A DNA stretch of 35,978 bases from Salipiger mucosus DSM 16094. GTDB taxonomy: Bacteria; Pseudomonadota; Alphaproteobacteria; Rhodobacterales; Rhodobacteraceae. The position numbers and the translations under genes were made by a program. Below are positions 587-11,737 of this stretch, piece after piece. The DNA is taken from positions 1 through 35,978 of the forward strand of contig NZ_KE557277.1 in assembly GCF_000442255.1 (NCBI RefSeq), read 5' to 3'. How positions within the stretch are numbered: the stretch's first letter is position 1; the number at the start of each line of letters is the position of its first letter. Below the pieces are notes generated by a model that had not been told where the DNA came from, did not search any database, and saw only the letters and a list, made by a program, of their open reading frames with translations.

Positions 587-1228
587 TTATAGCCGTGAGG
601 TAGCCAACTTGTAACTGGCGAAGCAGAAAAACACTCCCAGACCAGCCTCGATCCAACGGCGGGCGGCATTGAAGATTCTGACAACTGGCTGTGTCGAGAA
701 CGCGAGGGCGTAGGTGAGATGCCCGGTTAGAGAGATGAGGAATGTGCCAGCGACTATCACCCCACCGATCCACCAAGGGGAGTTGGCATCGAGGCCGAGT
801 GATATTGTTGCGGTCCAGGTGAGCGCTGCTTTGGGGTTTGTCATCTGGATCAACAAGCCGCGGCGAACATAGTCAAAATTGTTGTTCGAGCCAGCAAGGG
901 GCTTCGCGGTGATTTCGCCCACAGATAGAGCGGAACGGAAAGACTTAATTGCAAGCCAAAGAAGATAGCCTGCCCCGATGAATTTGATCAACGTCATAAG
1001 AGATGCGTAGGCAATCAGAAGCGTCGTCAGTCCCGCCCACGCAAGAACACCCCATAGAAATGAACCTGATGCGATACCAATGGCAAGTGACCGGCCTTGG
1101 TCACGCCCGACAGTCATGGACGTGCCGATGATAGAGAGAATATTTGGACCTGGGCTGAACATCCCAAGCACGAACACGCCGTAGGCAAGCAGTATGCCGT
1201 GCCATGAATGGGACAGTGCTTCAATCAT
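587..1228 (-). CDS. LysE/RhtB-family amino-acid exporter
   Basis: This is a 213-residue inner-membrane protein of the size and pattern of the LysE/RhtB translocators, which export amino acids or related metabolites. The family hallmark FSPGPNILSIIGTSMTVGRD lies near residues 24-43, with the helix-breaking SPGP motif after the first membrane segment. The second conserved motif, QMTNPKAALTW, is near residues 129-139. About six hydrophobic segments can be counted. Translation starts at the ATG at 1228. The gene sits between the copG remnant and an IS1595-type transposon, and is visibly more AT-rich than the trb genes, so it is probably accessory DNA. No regulator gene is adjacent, but a perfect 11-bp inverted repeat lies 36-84 bp upstream. 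The substrate cannot be told from sequence. Confidence 0.9.
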   Translation of the reverse strand: MIEALSHSWHGILLAYGVFVLGMFSPGPNILSIIGTSMTVGRDQGRSLAIGIASGSFLWGVLAWAGLTTLLIAYASLMTLIKFIGAGYLLWLAIKSFRSALSVGEITAKPLAGSNNNFDYVRRGLLIQMTNPKAALTWTATISLGLDANSPWWIGGVIVAGTFLISLTGHLTYALAFSTQPVVRIFNAARRWIEAGLGVFFCFASYKLATSRL

Positions 1229-1263: not shown

Positions 1264-1312
1264 ATCTAGCCTCTTGATAGCGCTTAAGTCTTGTTCGACA
1301 TAGAGGCTAGAT
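1264..1312. repeat. Perfect 11-bp inverted repeat upstream of the lysE-type gene
   Basis: ATCTAGCCTCT at 1264-1274 is repeated as its exact reverse complement AGAGGCTAGAT at 1302-1312, with 27 bp between the arms. It lies upstream of the minus-strand exporter gene that starts at 1228. It could be a pair of operator half-sites, or a remnant of a mobile-element end. No T-run follows, so it is not a typical intrinsic terminator. Confidence 0.6.
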
Positions 1313-1385
1313 CACAAGCTGGCCAATCAACGGTACAATCAACGAAACCTATCGTATGGCATAATTCAGGGGGTCTAGAAGCGAG

Positions 1386-1517
1386 ATGGCGCGGTTGACC
1401 ACGGAACCGCTGAAGGAATTCCTGCCGCGGTTAATGCCTGTGTTGCCATATGCCGACGCATTCCGAATCACCATGTTTGAACGGCTCGGCGCACGGCCAC
1501 ACCTTCCACGGCATTGA
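1386..1517 (+). CDS. Small hypothetical ORF (43 aa) at the transposon target site
   Basis: An ATG at 1386 opens a 43-codon frame (starting MARLTTEPLKEFLPRLMPVL) ending at TGA 1515-1517. The stop codon overlaps the left target duplication of the IS1595-type element. I do not recognise the product. The amino-acid composition is more protein-like than that of the opposite strand, but there is no convincing ribosome binding site. It may be a remnant of an older gene. Low confidence that it is expressed. Confidence 0.25.
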   Translation: MARLTTEPLKEFLPRLMPVLPYADAFRITMFERLGARPHLPRH

Positions 1518-1521
1518 GTTT
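1514..1521. repeat. Left copy of the 8-bp target site duplication (TTGAGTTT)
   Basis: TTGAGTTT directly abuts the left terminal inverted repeat and is identical to 3300-3307 at the other end. Eight bp is the duplication length known for the IS1595 family. Confidence 0.9.
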
Positions 1522-1545
1522 CCCTATTATCCACGAGAAAAAGCA
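1522..1545. repeat. Left terminal inverted repeat of the IS1595-family element
   Basis: 24 bp, complementary to 3276-3299 at 23 of 24 positions; the single difference is the base after CCCTATTATCCAC. The GGG/CCC tip is outermost. Confidence 0.9.
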
Positions 1546-1550
1546 AGACG

Positions 1551-1579
1551 CGCCTCAAACTTGCGTTCGAGGGCTTTTT
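1551..1579. terminator. Hairpin with T-runs on both sides, probable bidirectional terminator
   Basis: The 8-bp arms CCTCAAAC (1553-1560) and GTTCGAGG (1565-1572) pair with one G-U wobble around a 4-nt loop. On the plus strand the stem is followed at once by GCTTTTT (1573-1579). On the minus strand a T-run comes about 10 nt later, inside the terminal repeat. It lies 22 bp past the stop of the passenger gene, so it probably ends that transcript, and it can also stop transcripts entering from the left flank. Confidence 0.6.
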
Positions 1580-1593
1580 GGACATTGCGGACC

Positions 1594-2040
1594 TCAGACA
1601 ATCCCGTGCTTCTTCAGCAGTTCCTGTTCGTCGCCAGATACCCAACCAAAGACTTTCGCGGTGCCGTTCAAGACTTGAACGAGATAGTGGACATCGAAGT
1701 CGATGTCTGTCTCGGGCAAATCGTCTCGGGAATAGGTTGCGGTCCAGGAGACGCGGGCCACGCAATGAAGGTCGTCTATTGGAGACAGCCGAATATCGCG
1801 TTTTCGCATCTGCCGAGTGCCGATTTCTCTATAGTTCTGATAACCTTGAATCATTGCTTGAACGAGTGTTTCGTCATTCTTCCCTGCCATAACACCGGCA
1901 GGAGTAGCCGCGATAAATTCAGAAGCGTAGAGTTCTGAGACCTCTTCCTTGTCGAAGTCGTCAGCCAGAGAACGCTTGAAGAATTCCTCGTATCTCTCGA
2001 ACAGCTCATGCACTTCTTGTTCCACAGACTTGGTCCTCAA
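1594..2040 (-). CDS. NTF2/SnoaL-like protein, passenger gene of the transposon
   Basis: The frame encodes about 148 residues with the length and feel of the nuclear transport factor 2-like (SnoaL/DUF4440) fold. An N-terminal helix (EVHELFERYEEFFKRSL) leads into YASEFIAATPAGVMAGKND, and strands such as VARVSWTATYSRDD and VHYLVQVLNG follow. The fold is used by small isomerases, cyclases and ligand-binding proteins; no catalytic residues can be assigned. The longest frame begins at a TTG (2040). A GTG at 2025 has a TGAGGA sequence ahead of it and may be the true start. The gene lies inside the IS1595-type element, downstream of and co-directional with the transposase, and is followed by a hairpin terminator. 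It may be transcribed from its own promoter in the 88-bp gap or by read-through. Confidence 0.8.
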   Translation of the reverse strand: MRTKSVEQEVHELFERYEEFFKRSLADDFDKEEVSELYASEFIAATPAGVMAGKNDETLVQAMIQGYQNYREIGTRQMRKRDIRLSPIDDLHCVARVSWTATYSRDDLPETDIDFDVHYLVQVLNGTAKVFGWVSGDEQELLKKHGIV

Positions 2041-2128
2041 CGGCAGAATGGTCCGGTGAACATCGCACCGATCGCGTCATCAAACAACGACTTCGAAGGG
2101 CTCTCAGCGGATCTTCGCAGTGACGGGG

Positions 2129-3154
2129 TCATGGCCACCGAAGGCCCCACGACGGTGTGCGTCTCATCTGCCGGCCGACGGCTCCGCAGAGCAGGCCTCG
2201 CATCTGATCCACAACCGGGATCGGCCTCCATACGGTCGTGGTTTTTGATGTTGAAAGGCCCGATGAAGACTTCCGCTTCCGCACTTTGTTCTCCGGAGTC
2301 CTGTGGTTCCACCGCCAGATGATCTCGTCCAGGTATCGCTGTAGGTGCTTCCGTCCGAGACGGTGATACACGCCGATCAGAGCGCGCTGGACGACCGCGT
2401 TCACGGCTTCGACTGTGTTGATATGCGCTCCGGTTTTCGTGTTGGCATACTGGCGCTTGTTGTGCTGGATCGTATGGTGACTTGCAAAAGCTGCCCCGAT
2501 CTTTCCGTAGCTCGGGTTCTTATCGGTGATCAGCGCCGACGCCGGGTCAATCCAGCCCTCGATGATGGGCTTCATCGTTCGCCCTTGAGCATTCGGGATG
2601 AGCACGGCTCGAGCCTGTCCGTTTCGCGCCGCAGCAACGAGCACGATCGGTTTGCCTGTTCCTCGCCCCCGCTTGTTCTTGACGCCATGGCGGAACTTTG
2701 GCTTGCCACCGACGAAGGCCTCGTCGACCTCGACCACTCCCGACAGTCGACCGGCAATGCCCTGCCGATCATCCATCAACTCGCGGATTGCATGGCCAAG
2801 CTTCCAGGCGGTCTTCTGGTTCACGCCCAAAATGCGCGACATCACGACAGAAGATATGCCTTTGGAGGAGGTCAGCACGAGAAACATTGCGGCGATCCAG
2901 GTCCGGAGATGCAGCTTCGTCGCGTGGAGCGGCGTCTTGGTCGTGACGGTGAACTGGCTGCGGCATTCCTTTTCGATGCATTGATACAGACCGGGACGCA
3001 CGGATACACCCCGCAACGGGCGCGAACTCAAGCTGCCGCAATGTGGACAAAACCGATCATCGCCCCAGATGGCGTTTTCAAGGAAGAGCCGCGCGTGACG
3101 TTCGGTCGGCATCTTCTTCCAGACATCGCGGACAGACTTCAGTTCGGTTATCAT
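2129..3154 (-). CDS. IS1595-family (ISXO2-like) transposase
   Basis: A 341-residue DDE-type transposase. An N-terminal zinc ribbon is visible, with FCPHCGS (cysteines near 36 and 39) and a second cysteine pair in YQCIEKECRSQF. The catalytic domain follows with VEVDEAFVGGKPKFRHG (first Asp near 143), LITDKNPSYGKIG (second Asp near 209) and HINTVEAVNAVVQRALIGVY in the region of the third catalytic residue, ending with the family-typical GLRWP. The ATG at 3154 precedes the conserved start with normal spacing. The ORF is intact, so the element may be active. It catalyses movement of the 1522-3299 unit. Confidence 0.95.
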   Translation of the reverse strand: MITELKSVRDVWKKMPTERHARLFLENAIWGDDRFCPHCGSLSSRPLRGVSVRPGLYQCIEKECRSQFTVTTKTPLHATKLHLRTWIAAMFLVLTSSKGISSVVMSRILGVNQKTAWKLGHAIRELMDDRQGIAGRLSGVVEVDEAFVGGKPKFRHGVKNKRGRGTGKPIVLVAAARNGQARAVLIPNAQGRTMKPIIEGWIDPASALITDKNPSYGKIGAAFASHHTIQHNKRQYANTKTGAHINTVEAVNAVVQRALIGVYHRLGRKHLQRYLDEIIWRWNHRTPENKVRKRKSSSGLSTSKTTTVWRPIPVVDQMRGLLCGAVGRQMRRTPSWGLRWP

Positions 3155-3252
3155 GTAGCAGCCTCGCTTTTGGGGGACCCAGAAGATTGGCTGATTTCTC
3201 CGAACCGGAAGCGACTACGTTATGGCGTAGCCTGGGCCTTTGCGAGGCAAGC

Positions 3253-3283
3253 AAGCAGAGCATTGCCGAATGCTCTGCTTTTT
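3253..3283 (+). terminator. 12-bp perfect hairpin plus T5, just inside the right end of the transposon
   Basis: AAGCAGAGCATT (3253-3264) and AATGCTCTGCTT (3269-3280) form a perfect 12-bp stem with loop GCCG, followed by a T-run to 3283. It has the form of an intrinsic terminator read on the plus strand, i.e. outward from the element. It partly overlaps the right terminal repeat. Nothing obvious on the plus strand needs it, so it may instead shield neighbouring DNA or have a role at the transposon end. Confidence 0.75.
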
Positions 3284-3299
3284 CTGGTGGATAATAGGG
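3276..3299. repeat. Right terminal inverted repeat of the IS1595-family element
   Basis: 24 bp ending GGTGGATAATAGGG, the reverse complement of 1522-1545 with one mismatch. Its inner end includes the T-run of the hairpin at 3253-3283. Between it and trbB (3300-3463) I see only the target duplication and a short open frame without a start codon. Confidence 0.9.
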
Positions 3300-3307
3300 T
3301 TGAGTTT
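3300..3307. repeat. Right copy of the 8-bp target site duplication (TTGAGTTT)
   Basis: Identical to 1514-1521 and directly adjacent to the right terminal inverted repeat. Confidence 0.9.
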
Positions 3308-3463
3308 TTTTGAGGCGAGTTCAATTCCGCCGATCACCTGTCTTTACACGACACACTACGACGACCCTTGGAACCCTGTTGAGCCCTAGGCATTTTCGCC
3401 TTTCTTAATCGACCCCGATCCAGGGCGGCCTGTTGGAGGCGCCCGTAAGGGAACGGGGCCGGC

Positions 3464-4462
3464 ATGGCGAAGTCCGATCAGAGACCAGAAGTGATCCGGA
3501 GAGGCGCGCGGATGCTGCGCACCGCGCTCGGGCCGGCGATCGCCGGGTTTCTGGACGACCCCATGACCGTCGAGGTGATGCTCAACCCCGATGGGCGGCT
3601 CTGGATCGACCGACTTTCCGAGGGTCTGGCCGACAGCGGCAAGACGCTCAGCGCAGCGGACGGCGAGCGTATCGTTCGACTGGTCGCGCACCATGTTGGC
3701 GTTGAAGTTCATGGCCTGTCTCCACGCGTCTCTGCGGAGCTCCCGGAAACCGGTGAGCGTTTCGAGGGGCTGCTTCCTCCCGTGGTAGCGGCTCCGGCCT
3801 TCGCCATTCGCAAGCCCGCTGTCGCCGTCTTCACACTCGAGGACTACGTCGAAGCCGGGATCATGAACTTGATGCAAGCCAAGGCGCTCCGCCAGGCGGT
3901 TGCGACCCGTGCCAATATCCTGGTGGCGGGGGGCACCTCGACCGGCAAGACCACGCTGACCAATGCGCTGCTCGCCGAAGTGGCCAAGACCTCCGATCGC
4001 GTCGTGATCATCGAGGACACCCGGGAACTGCAATGCGCCGCGCCGAACCTCGTGGCGATGCGCACCAAGGACGGTGTTGCCAGCCTGTCCGACCTGGTTC
4101 GCTCTTCGCTGCGTCTGCGCCCCGATCGTATTCCGATCGGTGAGGTGCGTGGCGCCGAGGCGCTTGACCTGCTCAAAGCCTGGGGCACCGGACATCCGGG
4201 CGGCATCGGCACCATCCATGCCGGTTCCGGGGGCGGTGCGCTGCGTCGTCTCGAACAACTCATCCAGGAAGCCGTCGTTACCGTGCCCCGCGCCATGATC
4301 GCGGAGACCATCGACCTCGTGGCGGTCCTGGCCGGGCGAGGGTCCGCGCGTCGTCTGGTCGAACTCGCCTGCGTCGAGGGCCTCGGGCCGGAGGGCGACT
4401 ACCGGATTTCACCTGTCATTTCTGAACCCGCCATCCCTCACGAACCAGGAGATCCCAAATGA
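3464..4462 (+). CDS. trbB: Conjugal transfer ATPase TrbB (VirB11-type)
   Basis: A 332-residue cytoplasmic traffic ATPase of the type IV secretion (mating-pair formation) apparatus. The N-terminal domain ([34 protein letters not shown]) is followed by the RecA-like domain with Walker A GGTSTGKT at residues 156-163, the acidic box [16 protein letters not shown], then [20 protein letters not shown] (Walker B region) and the His box [13 protein letters not shown]. Length and motifs are normal, so the protein looks functional. It is the first gene of the trb operon and overlaps trbC by four bases (ATGA). The operon promoter must lie in or upstream of the rearranged region 500-3463, so expression may have changed after the insertions. 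Confidence 0.97.
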
Positions 4463-4791
4463 TCCGTCACGCCCTGCGCATCCGCCAGCACATCGCCACC
4501 GCGGCCGCCGCCACCTATGTCAGCCTGTTCATCGCTCCGGCTGCGCATGCCTCCGGCTCTTCCATGCCCTGGGAAGCGCCTCTGCAATCCATCCTCGACT
4601 CCGTTGAAGGGCCGGTGGCCAAGATCGTGGCGGTGATCATCATCATCGTCACCGGTCTTACGCTGGCCTTCGGCGATACCGGCGGTGGCTTCCGGCGGCT
4701 GATCCAGATCGTCTTCGGGATTTCCATCGCCTTTGCGGCCTCGTCGTTCTTCCTCAGCTTCTTCAGCTTCGGTGGCGGGGCACTGATCTGA
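4459..4791 (+). CDS. trbC: Conjugal transfer pilin TrbC (VirB2-type)
   Basis: A 110-residue prepilin. An N-terminal signal segment ends near APAAHASGS (a likely signal peptidase site around residue 31), followed by two hydrophobic segments (AKIVAVIIIIVTGLTLAFGD and QIVFGISIAFAASSFFLSFF) separated by a short charged loop with GGGFRRL. This is the usual TrbC/VirB2 layout; the mature product forms the conjugative pilus. It overlaps trbB by four bases, and its stop overlaps the trbD start. Confidence 0.95.
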   Translation: MIRHALRIRQHIATAAAATYVSLFIAPAAHASGSSMPWEAPLQSILDSVEGPVAKIVAVIIIIVTGLTLAFGDTGGGFRRLIQIVFGISIAFAASSFFLSFFSFGGGALI

Positions 4792-5072
4792 TGTCGGTGA
4801 GTTTCGAGGCCCTCGACGCGGTGCCGGGGTTCAGCGTGCCGGTTCATCGCGCGCTGACCGAGCCGATCCTGCTCGGCGGCGCACCACGCTCGGTCGCCAT
4901 TCTGAATGGCACGCTCGCAGGTGCGGTCGGCCTCGGGCTTCAGCTCTGGCTGGTCGGGATCCTGATCTGGGCCATCGGCCACATCGCAGCTGTCTGGGCG
5001 GCCAGGCGCGATCCGCTCTTCGTCGAGGTCGCGCGCCGCCATCTGCGCGTTCCCGGTCATCTCTCGGTGTGA
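4791..5072 (+). CDS. trbD: Conjugal transfer protein TrbD (VirB3-type)
   Basis: A 93-residue inner-membrane protein of the VirB3 family. It shows FSVPVHRALTEPILLGGAPR at the N-terminus, a hydrophobic stretch around residues 38-66 (LNGTLAGAVGLGLQLWLVGI onward), and the typical C-terminal ARRDPLFVEVARRHLR block. VirB3 proteins are small assembly factors linked to the pilus and to the VirB4 ATPase. Its ATG overlaps the trbC stop by one base, and trbE follows after six bases, so it is translated as part of the operon. Confidence 0.95.
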   Translation: MSVSFEALDAVPGFSVPVHRALTEPILLGGAPRSVAILNGTLAGAVGLGLQLWLVGILIWAIGHIAAVWAARRDPLFVEVARRHLRVPGHLSV

Positions 5073-5078
5073 ACCCCC

Positions 5079-7589
5079 ATGATGAATCTTGCTGAATACC
5101 GTCGCACCGCTTCGCGCCTCGCCGACTACCTGCCCTGGGTGGCGCTGGTCGGGGAGGGCGTGGTCCTCAACAAAGACGGCTCGTTTCAGAGGACGGCGAA
5201 ATTTCGGGGTCCCGATCTCGACAGTGCCGTCGCGGCCGAACTGGTCGCAGTCGCCGGGCGGCTGAACAACGCTTTCCGCCGCCTCGGTTCCGGGTGGGCA
5301 ATCTTCGTGGAAGCGCAGCGCTCCGAGGCCTCGACCTATCCGCTGAGCACCTTCCCGGATGCGGCTTCCGCGCTGGTCGATGCCGAGCGCAAGGCCGATT
5401 TCGAAGAGGAGGGGAGCCACTTTGTATCCGGTTATTTCCTGACGCTCCTCTGGCTTCCGCCTGCCGAGGACGCGGCGCGTTCGGAGTCCTGGCTCTACGA
5501 GGGACGCGAAACCTCGGGTGTGAATCCCTGGGAACAGGTGCGCAGCTTCATCGATCGAACGGATCGTGTGCTGGCACTGCTCGACGGTTTCATGCCGGAC
5601 TGCCACTGGCTCGATGACGCCGCTACGCTGACCTACCTGCACTCGACGATTTCGACCAACCGGCATCGCGTGCGCGTGCCCGAGGTGCCGGTCTATCTCG
5701 ACGCGCTCTTGCCCGACCAGCCGCTGGCCGGCGGGCTGGAACCGCGCCTGGGCAATCAGTATCTCCGCGTCCTGACGATCACCGGCTTTCCCGGCGCCAC
5801 GACCCCTGGCCTGCTCGACGAGTTGAACCGGCTGGCCTTTCCCTATCGTTGGTCGACCCGGGCCATCCTCATGGACAAGCTGGATGCAACCAAGCTGCTG
5901 ACCCGGATACGCCGTCAGTGGTTTGCCAAACGCAAGAGCATCGCCGCGATCCTCAAGGAGGTGATGACCAACGAGCAATCCGCACTGGTCGATACCGATG
6001 CTGCGAACAAGGCCGCCGACGCGGACATGGCCCTGCAGGAACTCGGCGCTGATGTGGCCGGCATGGCCTATGTCACGGCCACGATCACGGTCTGGGACGA
6101 GGACGTCCGCCGCGCTGACGAGAAGCTGCGGCTGGTCGAGAAGATCGTCCAGTCCCGCGATTTCACTGTCATGGTCGAGACGGTCAATGCCGTCGATGCC
6201 TGGCTCGGCAGCTTGCCCGGACATGCCTATGCCAATGTCCGCCAGCCACCGATCAGCACATTGAATCTCGCCCATATGATCCCGCTTTCGGCGGTCTGGG
6301 CGGGGCCGGAACAGGATGAGCATTTCGGCGACGCTCCATTGCTCTACGCCAGGACCGAAGGCTCCACCCCGTTCCGGTTTTCTCTTCATGTCGGGGATGT
6401 CGGTCACATCCTCGTCGTCGGCCCGACCGGCGCGGGCAAATCCGTGTTGCTGGCGCTGATGGCGCTTCAGTTCCGGCGGTACTCCCGCAGCCAGGTCTTC
6501 GCCTTCGACTTCGGCGGCTCGATCCGCGCCGCTTCGCTCGCCATGGGCGGCGACTGGCATGACCTCGGCGGAGAGCTGACCGACGCGGACGAGAACTCCG
6601 TCTCGCTGCAACCGCTGGCCCGCATTCACGAGACGTCGGAGCGCGCCTGGGCGGCTAACTGGATCGTCGCCATCCTGACGCGCGAGAACATCCAGATCAC
6701 CCCGGATGTGAAGGAACATATCTGGACGGCACTGACCTCGCTGGCCTCGGCCCCTGTGGGCGAGCGGACCATGACCGGCCTCGCGGTCCTGCTGCAGTCC
6801 AACGACCTCAAGCAGGCGCTCCGCGCATACTGCGTGGGTGGGCCCTATGGCCGGCTGCTCGATGCCGAAGCCGAACAGCTGGGATCGGCGGATGTGCAGG
6901 CCTTCGAGATCGAGGGACTGGTGGGAACCGGCGCGGCGCCCGCCGTCCTCTCATACCTGTTCCACCGGATCGGCGATCGGCTCGACGGGCGACCCACGCT
7001 GCTCATCATCGACGAGGGCTGGCTCGCGCTCGATGACGATGCCTTCGCGGAGCAACTCCGCGAGTGGCTGAAGACGCTGAGGAAAAAGAACGCCTCGGTG
7101 ATCTTCGCGACGCAGAGCCTCAGCGACATTGATGGCAGCGCCATCGCGCCTGCGATCATCGAAAGTTGCCCGACACGGCTCCTGCTGCCGAACGAGCGGG
7201 CCATCGAGCCGCAGATTACGGCCATCTATCGCCGCTTCGGCCTAAATGACCGGCAGATCGAGATCCTCGCGCGGGCCACGCCCAAACGCGACTACTACTG
7301 CCAGTCGCGGCGCGGCAACCGGCTGTTCGAGCTGGGTCTCAGCGATGTCGGACTCGCACTCTGCGCGGCGTCGTCCAAATCGGATCAGGCGCTGATTGCC
7401 GAGATCTGCGCCGGGCAAGGCCGAGACGGGTTTCTCTCCGCCTGGCTGACGGCGCATGGCCTCGATTGGGCCGCCGAGCTGATCCCCGACCTCACCAATC
7501 TTGCCATAGACGCTGACGGGGCCTTTCCGGCTACCGCTGTTGTCGAGGACGTCGAACCTGTCCTGAAAGAAGAGGAGATCACATCATGA
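5079..7589 (+). CDS. trbE: Conjugal transfer ATPase TrbE (VirB4-type)
   Basis: At 836 residues this is the largest gene of the operon and the main energising ATPase of the T4SS. The N-terminal CagE/TrbE domain begins MNLAEYRRTASRLADYLPW. The C-terminal RecA-like domain has Walker A GPTGAGKS at residues 448-455, the Walker B stretch LLIIDEGW around 641-648, and FATQSLSDIDGSAIAPAIIE after it. Length is normal for the family and no frame interruption is seen. Its end overlaps the trbJ start by four bases. A long open frame on the opposite strand (4515-6719) is a codon-bias shadow of this gene and was discarded. Confidence 0.97.
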   Translation: MMNLAEYRRTASRLADYLPWVALVGEGVVLNKDGSFQRTAKFRGPDLDSAVAAELVAVAGRLNNAFRRLGSGWAIFVEAQRSEASTYPLSTFPDAASALVDAERKADFEEEGSHFVSGYFLTLLWLPPAEDAARSESWLYEGRETSGVNPWEQVRSFIDRTDRVLALLDGFMPDCHWLDDAATLTYLHSTISTNRHRVRVPEVPVYLDALLPDQPLAGGLEPRLGNQYLRVLTITGFPGATTPGLLDELNRLAFPYRWSTRAILMDKLDATKLLTRIRRQWFAKRKSIAAILKEVMTNEQSALVDTDAANKAADADMALQELGADVAGMAYVTATITVWDEDVRRADEKLRLVEKIVQSRDFTVMVETVNAVDAWLGSLPGHAYANVRQPPISTLNLAHMIPLSAVWAGPEQDEHFGDAPLLYARTEGSTPFRFSLHVGDVGHILVVGPTGAGKSVLLALMALQFRRYSRSQVFAFDFGGSIRAASLAMGGDWHDLGGELTDADENSVSLQPLARIHETSERAWAANWIVAILTRENIQITPDVKEHIWTALTSLASAPVGERTMTGLAVLLQSNDLKQALRAYCVGGPYGRLLDAEAEQLGSADVQAFEIEGLVGTGAAPAVLSYLFHRIGDRLDGRPTLLIIDEGWLALDDDAFAEQLREWLKTLRKKNASVIFATQSLSDIDGSAIAPAIIESCPTRLLLPNERAIEPQITAIYRRFGLNDRQIEILARATPKRDYYCQSRRGNRLFELGLSDVGLALCAASSKSDQALIAEICAGQGRDGFLSAWLTAHGLDWAAELIPDLTNLAIDADGAFPATAVVEDVEPVLKEEEITS

Positions 7590-8676: not shown

Positions 8677-10026
8677 ATGGGTGGAACCGGCGTCATCGAC
8701 AACTTCCTGGGCATCTTCACCAGCTATATCGACAGCGGGTTCGGGCTGCTTGGTGGGGAGGTGGCTTTCATTGCGACCACGCTGATCGTGATCGACGTGA
8801 CGCTGGCGGCTCTGTTCTGGGCCTGGGGCGTCGATGACGACATTATCGCCCGGCTGGTGAAGAAGACGATCTTTGTCGGGGTCTTCGCCTATATCATCTC
8901 AAACTGGAACAACCTCGCCCGGATCGTCTTCGAGAGCTTCGCAGGCCTCGGTCTGATGGCCTCGGGCACCGGGTTTTCCGCCGCCGATCTTCTGCGCCCC
9001 GGCCGCGTGGCCCAGACCGGACTCGAGGCCGGACGGCCGCTGCTCGAAAGCATCTCCGATCTGATGGGCTGGGTCGCGGTCTTCGAGAACCTCGTCCAGA
9101 TCCTCTGCCTGTTCTTCGCCTGGGTGTTGGTGATCCTCGCCTTCTTCATCCTCGCGGTTCAGCTCTTCGTCACCCTGATAGAGTTCAAACTCACGACCCT
9201 CGCGGGCTTCGTGCTGATCCCCTTCGGCCTCTTCGGCAAGACCGCTTTCATGGCCGAGCGCGTGCTGGGCAACGTCATCTCGTCCGGCATCAAGGTTCTC
9301 GTCCTCGCCGTGATCATCGGCATCGGATCGACGCTCTTCGGTCAGTTCACCGCAGGCTTCGGAGGCCTGACGCCGACCATCGATGACGCCATGGCGATTG
9401 TGCTGGCCGCCCTGTCTCTGCTGGGCCTCGGTATCTTCGGCCCCGGCATCGCCTCGGGTCTGGTGTCCGGCGGACCCCAACTCAGCGCGGGAGCGGCCAT
9501 AGGTACAGGCCTTGCCGTTGGTGGTGCTGCGATCGGGGCCGGAGGGGCGACCATGCTGGCTGCACGCGGAGCCGGATCAGTGCTCTCCGGTGGCGCCGCT
9601 CTGGCACGCGGCGGTGCCACCGCGGCGGGCGCTGCCTCGAGCGCCTACACGCTCGGCTCGATGGGCGGAGGAGGTCTCCCCGGCGGGATGGCTGGTGTAG
9701 CGCGCGCCGGGGCCGCTGCCGCGGCATCACCCCTCAAGAAGGCGTCCTCTCGCGCTGCTGGCGGGATTCAGTCCAGCTACGCCGAGGGCGTCAAGGGCGG
9801 TGTTGCGGCGACGGGCGGAACCTCCTCGATGGGTTCGGTCGGCGGCACGCCGCCCGAGCCTTCTTCCGGCCCGTCCGCCTCCGATGGCCCGCCAGCCTGG
9901 GCAAAGCGCATGCGCCATAGCCAAGCCGTGAGCCATGGCGTGCGCGCTGCCGCCCATGCCGTCCGGTCGGGCGACAGCCACGGCTCGGGCTCCTCCGTCA
10001 ATCTCTCCGAAAGGGACCGCTCATGA
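8677..10026 (+). CDS. trbL: P-type conjugative transfer protein TrbL (VirB6-type)
   Basis: A 449-residue polytopic inner-membrane channel component. It starts MGGTGVIDNFLGIFTSYIDS, followed by about six hydrophobic segments to near residue 265 (for example VAFIATTLIVIDVTLAALFW and ILCLFFAWVLVILAFFILAV). The rest is a long glycine/alanine-rich, low-complexity tail (about residues 265-449) that ends in a hydrophilic, His/Ser-rich segment. This split is typical of TrbL/VirB6. It starts three bases after trbK and overlaps trbF by four. Confidence 0.95.
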   Translation: MGGTGVIDNFLGIFTSYIDSGFGLLGGEVAFIATTLIVIDVTLAALFWAWGVDDDIIARLVKKTIFVGVFAYIISNWNNLARIVFESFAGLGLMASGTGFSAADLLRPGRVAQTGLEAGRPLLESISDLMGWVAVFENLVQILCLFFAWVLVILAFFILAVQLFVTLIEFKLTTLAGFVLIPFGLFGKTAFMAERVLGNVISSGIKVLVLAVIIGIGSTLFGQFTAGFGGLTPTIDDAMAIVLAALSLLGLGIFGPGIASGLVSGGPQLSAGAAIGTGLAVGGAAIGAGGATMLAARGAGSVLSGGAALARGGATAAGAASSAYTLGSMGGGGLPGGMAGVARAGAAAAASPLKKASSRAAGGIQSSYAEGVKGGVAATGGTSSMGSVGGTPPEPSSGPSASDGPPAWAKRMRHSQAVSHGVRAAAHAVRSGDSHGSGSSVNLSERDRS

Positions 10027-10712
10027 ACCTCTTCAGGCGTTCCGCCACGCATTATGGCAAGTCACCTCAACCAGAGACGCCCTACCAGAGGGCCGCGCAG
10101 GTCTGGGACGAGCGCATCGGCTCCGCCCGTGTCCAGGCCCGCAACTGGCGCTACATGGCCTTCGGCATCCTGATCCTGGCGGCGGGATTTGCTGTCGCCC
10201 TGGTCTGGCAATCCGCGCGTGGCACCATCGTGCCCTGGGTCGTTCAGGTCGACGCGCTCGGCGAGGCCCAGGCTGTCGCTCCGGCTTCCGCCGACTACGA
10301 ACCGACCGATCCCCAGATCGCCTTCCATCTTGGCCGTTTCATCGAACAGGTACGGTCGATTCCGGCCGACCCGATCATCGTGCGGCAGAACTGGCTGCGC
10401 GCCTATGAGTTCACCACGGATCGTGGGGCGGCGGCTCTGAACGACTTTGCTCGCGCCAATGACCCGTTCACCCGCGTCGGTCGCCAACAGATCGCTGTCG
10501 AGGTGTCCTCCGTCATCCGGGCCTCACCGGGATCGTTCCGCGTCGCCTGGACCGAGCGCCACTACGAGAACGGTCAGCTTTCCACGACCGAGCGCTGGAC
10601 CGCGATCCTGACCGTCGTGATCCAGACGCCGCGCAGCGCCGAGCGCCTGCGCGCCAATCCCCTCGGAATCTATATCAATGCGATCTCCTGGTCGCGGGAG
10701 ATGAGCCAATGA
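10023..10712 (+). CDS. trbF: Conjugal transfer protein TrbF (VirB8-type)
   Basis: A 229-residue bitopic inner-membrane protein. The cytoplasmic N-terminus contains ETPYQRAAQVWDERIGSARV, then a single membrane segment (YMAFGILILAAGFAVALVWQ, about residues 44-63), then the periplasmic NTF2-like VirB8 domain, including VPWVVQVDALGEAQAV and the C-terminal ANPLGIYINAISWSREM. VirB8 proteins nucleate the core complex. It overlaps trbL and trbG by four bases each. Confidence 0.96.
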   Translation: MNLFRRSATHYGKSPQPETPYQRAAQVWDERIGSARVQARNWRYMAFGILILAAGFAVALVWQSARGTIVPWVVQVDALGEAQAVAPASADYEPTDPQIAFHLGRFIEQVRSIPADPIIVRQNWLRAYEFTTDRGAAALNDFARANDPFTRVGRQQIAVEVSSVIRASPGSFRVAWTERHYENGQLSTTERWTAILTVVIQTPRSAERLRANPLGIYINAISWSREMSQ

Positions 10713-11737
10713 CTGAACAGCATCTTCATGCAACCAGGTCTCCGGGCGTCAGGACGCCGATGTTGGTGGCCTTGCTGCTATCCGCATCCGTACTGGCGGG
10801 ATGTGCCAGAAACCCGGTGCCGGAATTCAGCTACGACGAGTCCGTGCCGCCACTGCCCACTCCTCCCGCCTCGGCTGCCGAGGAGCGCCCTCGGCCGTTG
10901 TACACGCCGCCGGTCTGGACAGTGGCGCATGGCGGAGCGGCGGCGGGCACACCAACCGGTCGTGTCGAAAACGCCAATGCCGCCGCCCGGGTCGAACCGC
11001 GCCGCGAGGGCTATTACAATGCGATCCAGATTTATCCCTGGTCGGAAGGCGCCCTCTATCAGGTCTATGCCGCGCCGGGTCAGATCACCAACATCGCACT
11101 TGAGCCGGGCGAGCGTCTGACCGGCGCAGGCCCGATCGCCGCGGGAGATACCACGCGCTGGATCATCGGCGACACGGAGAGCGGGACCGGATCCAACGCC
11201 CGCGTCCACATCCTCGTCAAACCGACGCGGGACGACATCTCGACCAATCTGGTGATCAGCACTGACAGGCGGGTGTATACGATCGAGCTGCGTGCCCGCG
11301 AGTCGCTCTACATGCCCTCCGTCGCCTGGGCCTATCCGGCAGCGCCCCGTGGTGGGCGACAGGCTGTGGGAACCGCGCCGGCCATTCCGGCGCCCTCTGC
11401 CCGCATACATCGCTACGGCTTGCAGATCCAGGGCGAAAGCCCGCCCTGGCGTCCTGTCTCGGTCTTCGACGATGGCCGTCGTGTTTATGTCGTCTTCCCG
11501 GCTGGCATCGCCCAGGGCGAAATGCCGCCGCTCTTCGTGCTCGGTGCCGATGGAGAACCGCAGATCGTGAACAGCCGCATTCACCGGAACGTGCTGATCG
11601 TGGATCGCCTCTTCGGTGCGGCGGAGCTCCGGCTGGGCGCAGGAGACCGCCAGCAGGTGGTCCGGATCGTGCGCATGGAGGAGCGCGAGGCGGATGCGCG
11701 AACGGAAGGGGATGCGCGAAGGGGAGGGGCGTCATGA
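10709..11737 (+). CDS. trbG: Conjugal transfer lipoprotein TrbG (VirB9-type)
   Basis: A 342-residue outer-membrane core-complex component. The N-terminus has a hydrophobic stretch and a lipobox VLAGC with the cysteine at residue 32, so lipidation is likely. A variable proline-rich linker follows, then the CagX/VirB9 region with YNAIQIYPWSEGALYQVYAA, VHILVKPTRDDISTNLVIST and the C-terminal ESPPWRPVSVFDDGRRVYVV block. VirB9 proteins connect the periplasmic channel to the outer membrane. It overlaps trbF and trbI by four bases. Confidence 0.96.
   Translation: MTEQHLHATRSPGVRTPMLVALLLSASVLAGCARNPVPEFSYDESVPPLPTPPASAAEERPRPLYTPPVWTVAHGGAAAGTPTGRVENANAAARVEPRREGYYNAIQIYPWSEGALYQVYAAPGQITNIALEPGERLTGAGPIAAGDTTRWIIGDTESGTGSNARVHILVKPTRDDISTNLVISTDRRVYTIELRARESLYMPSVAWAYPAAPRGGRQAVGTAPAIPAPSARIHRYGLQIQGESPPWRPVSVFDDGRRVYVVFPAGIAQGEMPPLFVLGADGEPQIVNSRIHRNVLIVDRLFGAAELRLGAGDRQQVVRIVRMEEREADARTEGDARRGGAS

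Follow-up and report, generated by a model that had tools for sequence, protein, structure and literature searches.

The window analysed here (35,978 nucleotides of DNA from Salipiger mucosus DSM 16094) contains a transposase gene and a gene for a small NTF2-like protein enclosed by a single pair of inverted repeats. This raises the question of what the second gene is to the element: a functional part of it, a passenger typical of such elements, or the content of a place that is filled differently in other copies. We consider it very probable that the element belongs to a cargo-bearing lineage of the IS1595 family with one fixed slot, located between the 3' end of the transposase gene and the distal repeat, the content of which is carried passively.

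Anatomy and family membership of the element

The element occupies positions 1522-3299 of the window (1,778 bp) and is bounded by two identical copies of an 8-bp target duplication, TTGAGTTT, at 1514..1521 and 3300..3307. Its 24-nt terminal inverted repeats, at 1522-1545 (plus strand, distal to the transposase) and 3276-3299, are complementary at 23 of 24 positions and form the longest inverted pair within 1300-3500. The pattern of the ends, with up to five mismatches allowed, matched once in 408,003 bases of a shuffled-base control. The left end sequence recurs in relatives, and it is unlikely that the ends arose by chance since the same end sequence surrounds homologous transposases in other genomes. 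An intact transposase gene (341 aa, minus strand, 2129..3154) is separated from the right boundary by the proximal end region (3155..3299), which contains the second repeat. The passenger gene, encoding a 148-aa NTF2-fold protein (1594..2040), is on the same minus strand, downstream of the transposase gene after a gap of 88 bp; its start is listed as TTG and the true start may lie slightly downstream. Direct checking of the sequence confirmed the repeats and the perfect duplication reported in the initial annotation. Its description of a complete IS1595-family unit with an ISXO2-like transposase and an NTF2-like passenger inside the ends agrees with the domains, the ends and the predicted fold.

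The element is present in one copy in its own genome. To its left lies a gene for a LysE-type exporter (587-1228, minus strand), and positions 9-327 have 73-81% DNA identity to plasmid transposase genes (among 10 matches listed of 81). About 160 bp to the right there is a trb-type conjugation cluster (3464-7589) with a TrbB-like T2SSE ATPase and a TrbE-like ATPase. The first part of this cluster recurs at eight places in five other genomes of the genus (seven at 91% and one at 78%), where the sequence upstream is different. No empty site was found at these eight trb loci: in seven the match to the window begins only some 16 bp outside the right duplication, in the eighth it begins at a greater distance, and for the 808 bp on the left of the element there is no match at any of them.

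The transposase contains the DDE_Tnp_IS1595 domain that characterises the family (PF12762, E 9.4e-42; NCBIfam NF033547, E 1.3e-54) and an N-terminal zinc ribbon (PF12760, E 1.4e-9), all above cut-off. Such a ribbon, except in the IS1016 group, and an 8-bp target duplication, exact in the window element, are both given as features of the family in the accessible part of PMC8101967. The nearest named element found for the transposase, in the plasmid collection, is ISPepr2 with 41.5% identity. A composite transposon is ruled out by the single transposase within one pair of ends and by the single copy in the genome. The element has between its two ends a non-transposition gene, of the NTF2 fold, whose homologues occur without transposase, and is thus a tIS, the name used for IS1595 elements with passengers. 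Such elements are already known: ISNha5 carries transcription regulators (PMC11891212, citing Siguier 2009, in the part accessible), and tISCpe8, a lincomycin resistance element according to a reference title, is named together with MTnSag1 among the passenger-bearing IS1595 elements in the accessible part of PMC5704250. As in these examples, an IS1595-family transposase is combined with a passenger dispensable for transposition (PMC11891212, PMC5704250). Unlike them, the window lineage has one sharp-bordered slot whose cargo changes from almost every copy to the next. The combination of a constant slot with almost as many cargoes as copies, within one lineage, is what deserves reporting. We found no prior account of an IS1595 lineage with a fixed slot and near copy-specific cargo in the literature searched, which was mostly open-access.

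Mobile insertion cassettes are described as non-autonomous (PMC3281130, accessible part) and have no transposase gene, whereas the window element keeps an intact one. A relative, L086 (genome G341, 8890-10920), resembles these cassettes: both ends are present, the duplication (TCGTCCTG) is exact, the gene inside encodes a Fic protein of 521 aa, and on the transposase side there is no more than the proximal end and about 15 codons of transposase sequence. Judged by its structure, L086 would be a mobile cassette, provided that it did not lose the transposase once it had inserted. Its Fic protein strongly matches the PADLOC candidate model PDC-S24 (E 3.5e-181), and it was the only one matched by PADLOC among ten proteins searched (nine element cargoes and this one).

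Relatives of the transposase and their cargoes

The transposase was searched for in 394 genomes of the family, 390 of the order and 385 of the class (overlapping samples) and in the plasmid collection. At most five candidates were scored per genome and the counts are therefore lower bounds. At E <= 1e-100 there are at least 26 different places, 16 in the family sample and 10 more in the order sample, all of them in the window's own family. Plasmid records add three places, in Ponticoccus (L002), Limimaricola (L003) and Sulfitobacter (L004). In the class sample 2 of 385 genomes matched at E <= 1e-90; both belong to the same family and had been found in the other samples. Among the genomes sampled, the lineage is limited to the window's own bacterial family and the three Rhodobacterales plasmids. 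A search for relatives in viral contigs gave two stretches that fit a pattern, neither of them confirmed. The transposase lineage is under constraint.

Both element ends could be located at 24 of the 29 clade transposase places examined. The five left out are L079 (proximal end only), L082, L083 and L107 (incomplete transposase), and L084 (48% identity, three stops). Also uncounted are the remnants L085, L091, L007 and L008, the solo distal ends L087, L088, L089 and L092, and the repeat-only places L090, L093 and L094. The solo distal end of L088 adjoins genes (3762-6456) that by eye belong to the GNAT, Ada-like and isocitrate lyase/PEP mutase-like families, and the proximal-end remnants L007 and L008 in Roseovarius lie beside annotated HTH and PEP-mutase-family genes.

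Twenty of the 24 elements have exact 8-bp duplications; mismatches are found in L102 (one), L076 (two), L099 (three) and L104 (four). It should be noted that distal ends were selected jointly on the repeat and the duplication match, so that the duplication is not independent evidence where the repeats are degenerate (8 of 24, with 5-7 mismatches). The repeats differ at no more than four of 24 positions in 16 elements, and 13 of these 16 have exact duplications. Clade duplications are 88% A+T, compared with 63% G+C for the window. Because the flanks of L099 and L104 mismatch, the distal ends of these two elements were placed by hand. Both lie on contig 9 of genome G439, where the octamer at the left flank of L099 (AAATAATT) equals that at the right flank of L104, and the two elements look as if ends may have been swapped between them.

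All 24 elements have the same layout. Extra DNA of 490-5,158 bp sits in a single slot, measured from the outer edge of the distal repeat to the transposase coding region, and on the opposite side 113-286 bp separate the 5' end of the transposase match from the outer edge of the proximal repeat, with the maximum in L077, where the match lacks the first 47 codons. The contents of the slot, trimmed of its borders and compared by blastn and tblastn, fall into 22 distinct cargoes. Only two pairs of elements share one: L004 and L106 (HipA, 97% DNA identity), and L074 and L076 (85% DNA identity), the cargo of L076 having no open frame of 70 aa. Those of L081 and L101 have a distant LysR resemblance (25% identity).

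The cargoes, named from Pfam or from record annotation, are of many kinds. Single proteins or domains were named for L098, an element from the same genus as the window (NUDIX), L099 (DUF2268 protease), L100 (zinc alcohol dehydrogenase, ADH), L070 (DnaJC28-type DUF1992), L072 (SMI1/KNR4, SUKH), L077 (R2K ATP-grasp), L105 (GNAT) and L004 (HipA). Others have several: LysR, two LysE and DHDPS (L101), EamA and AraC (L102), an FCD regulator and a methyltransferase (L103), a Crp-type regulator, an alkylsulfatase and others (L075), a MerR-methyltransferase, GNAT and RsgA (L080), LysR and SDR (L081), and SulP with a universal stress protein (L003). No Pfam match above cut-off was found in the cargoes of L002, L071, L073, L074, L078 and L104. 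The cargo of the Ponticoccus element L002 has a 149-aa open frame with a lipoprotein-like start (3494-3943, minus strand) that the PLSDB gene table, itself incomplete, does not list. Genome G439 alone harbours three elements (L099, L100 and L104) with three different cargoes.

The idea that an NTF2 cargo typifies the element did not hold up, as 23 of the 24 elements exclude the NTF2 gene. The initial annotation had expected its reading to be contradicted by copies that lack the NTF2 gene and have their repeats nearer the transposase. The gene is indeed missing from these 23 elements, but their distal repeats enclose other DNA, mostly genes.

Slot borders and outgroup elements

The borders of the slot are best seen in the six closest elements, i.e. 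the window's own and five with 94-97% identical transposases. Their distal end is conserved over about 70 bp (in the window the left terminal block, 1522..1583), after which mean identity collapses from 0.62 to 0.39 and lower. Identity recovers some 35 bp ahead of the stop codon of the transposase, counted from the slot side; in the window this right border, just past the stop codon (2129-2131), is at 2096..2131. The blast extents are similar, 55-80 bp on the left and with right-side starts at 522-536 of L070. Since these conserved borders surround differing cargo, it is likely that the ends and the transposase persisted and that the interior was replaced.

A possible though rather doubtful alternative is that each cargo was captured by way of a new distal end, the transposase pairing its proximal repeat with a sequence that resembles a repeat and lies on the far side of an adjacent gene. 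The distal ends of L071 and L101, which share little with their relatives outside the 24-bp repeat, would agree with such a route, as would the degenerate state of some distal repeats. In the six closest elements, however, the distal end is conserved over about 70 bp despite the differing cargo, which argues for an end that was kept, and an apparent extra left end in L103, considered as a capture intermediate, was rejected as a weak match within coding DNA.

Eight outgroup IS1595 elements with 34-42% identical transposases (ISPepr2 and seven from 40 matches listed of 72) are 1.08-1.20 kb long, terminate about 8 bp after the transposase stop and contain no slot; the slot is thus not general in the IS1595 family. 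ISRm32 and ISPepr2 resemble the window element in the transposase (34-42% identity), the 8-bp duplication and ends of related look, and differ from it in having no cargo slot and in ending about 8 bp past the stop codon. Exact duplications were found in five of the eight outgroup elements and none in L123, L124 and L127. For L126, two higher-ranked repeat pairs from an inverted neighbouring transposase copy were set aside. The anatomy, the duplications, the variable cargo within sharp borders and the lack of a slot in the outgroup elements can all be read in the DNA itself.

Two further features of the borders were examined. Seven left borders folded as single-stranded DNA revealed no conserved foldable site of the integron type (z 0.37 to -1.72), and a hairpin or attC-like site was rejected as none clearly beats its shuffles. 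The idea that slot borders are dispersed repeats was not supported either: most of twelve 10-mers occur at or near expectation in 230,976 flanking bases, with counts above it of 4 versus 1.0 and 2 versus 0.7, and of 5 versus 1.8 for a related 10-mer. The best candidate donors of other cargoes, searched for in 198 genomes each, were 77% identical for L070 and 71% for L100, too distant for mapping of the junctions.

According to the reading that we prefer, the transposase would act on both 24-bp ends and insert the 1.8-kb element in its entirety at 8-bp targets rich in A and T. The slot content would travel passively, being a captured NTF2-fold gene in the window copy and unrelated genes in the relatives. 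Cargo would be exchanged between the left block of about 70 bp and the right border, some 35 bp beyond the stop codon of the transposase, and such swaps may arise by illegitimate recombination at short overlaps.

Origin of the NTF2-fold gene and meaning of the lineage

By sequence, the passenger protein matches only DUF6841, an NTF2-like family, below the Pfam cut-off (E 0.0056), and no NCBIfam family. Its AlphaFold model, based on 19 aligned sequences (18 relatives and the window protein itself), has a pLDDT of 88 and a pTM of 0.82, and a structure search with it gave 298 PDB matches at E <= 0.001. Among the 50 listed of these 298, NTF2/cystatin-fold proteins predominate, including SnoaL-like and ketosteroid-isomerase-like enzymes and CaMKII hubs, with TM-scores (by query) of 0.44-0.65 and identities of 7-20%. 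The passenger had been called NTF2/SnoaL-like. NTF2-like is right as a name for the fold; the SnoaL subfamily is not established.

The gene also occurs without the transposase, in L009, L010 and L011, with protein identities of 96, 93 and 78%, respectively. The cargo segment of the window (1580..2103) is 96% identical in DNA to the locus of Roseibacterium sp. (L009), and 89% and 80% identical to L010 and L011 over similar stretches. L009 has neither such a transposase nor the repeats within the stretch compared. A transposase of the window type was found at none of 22 loci with NTF2 homologues (flanks up to 6 kb, some ended by contig ends), and the expected tie between these homologues and the transposase was not observed. 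Proteins 93-96% identical in two other species without the window transposase indicate that the NTF2 gene was captured. It appears in other mobile surroundings as well, since in L009 it is near a resolvase gene and in L010 between a MobA/MobL relaxase gene and an ArdC gene.

Between the window and L009 the NTF2 gene has a dS of 0.11 and a dN/dS of 0.16 by NG86 (0.07 and 0.30 by YN00); the window transposase and its five nearest relatives, all with other cargo, have a dS of 0.31-0.34 (NG86). These values would fit a capture of the NTF2 gene after those transposase lineages had parted, with L009 as a stand-in for the donor. At the junctions there are short overlaps, AAGGGCTC on the right (2096-2103), common to the right slot border and the native flank of the NTF2 gene, and GGAC on the left (1580-1583), each of which fits both the element and the native flank. 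For this one captured gene, compared with a locus that is not the actual donor, the overlaps suggest that illegitimate recombination may have been involved.

From the place of the NTF2 gene inside the duplicated target we infer that it moved together with the window transposase. The NTF2 gene could instead have recombined in place into a resident, possibly immobile element and never have moved with it, which we consider unlikely. There is a single copy of the element in the genome, no second NTF2-bearing element was found among the 24, and synonymous divergence makes the cargo younger than the element lineage, all of which would accord with entry in place. On the other hand, the transposase is intact, its lineage is constrained, the ends and the duplication are fresh, and sister elements that carry other cargoes are flanked by exact duplications at sites of their own, although all of this leaves room for an in-place exchange in the window copy. 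It is highly improbable that the second gene serves the element itself, e.g. as a regulator of transposition, as might be proposed from its position on the same strand downstream of the transposase with an 88-bp gap and from its few amino-acid changes, because the relatives, with 22 distinct cargoes in 24 elements, already contradict it and NTF2 homologues occur without transposase.

Beyond the passive carriage of cargo in a fixed slot, there is about an even chance that the lineage acts as a one-slot vehicle for gene capture, in which ends and transposase are kept, arbitrary host genes time and again take the place of the previous content of a slot with fixed borders, and loss of the transposase leads to mobile cassettes with cargo only. 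To our knowledge, the passengers described for insertion sequences are mostly resistance genes or isolated examples. In the present case a whole small lineage has additional genes without evident common function, in a fixed place and in almost as many versions as there are copies. For annotation this calls for caution, as the cargo resembles chromosomal genes and the open frame of the Ponticoccus element does not appear in the incomplete PLSDB gene table. If the cargo swaps while the ends and the transposase persist, this would be a very small natural system (a core of about 1.2 kb) for the transition from insertion sequence to transposon. It may also be a route by which ordinary metabolic and regulatory genes become mobile without antibiotic selection. 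From the sequences compared, the lineage suggests a simple natural shuttle by which bacteria may pick up and move genes.
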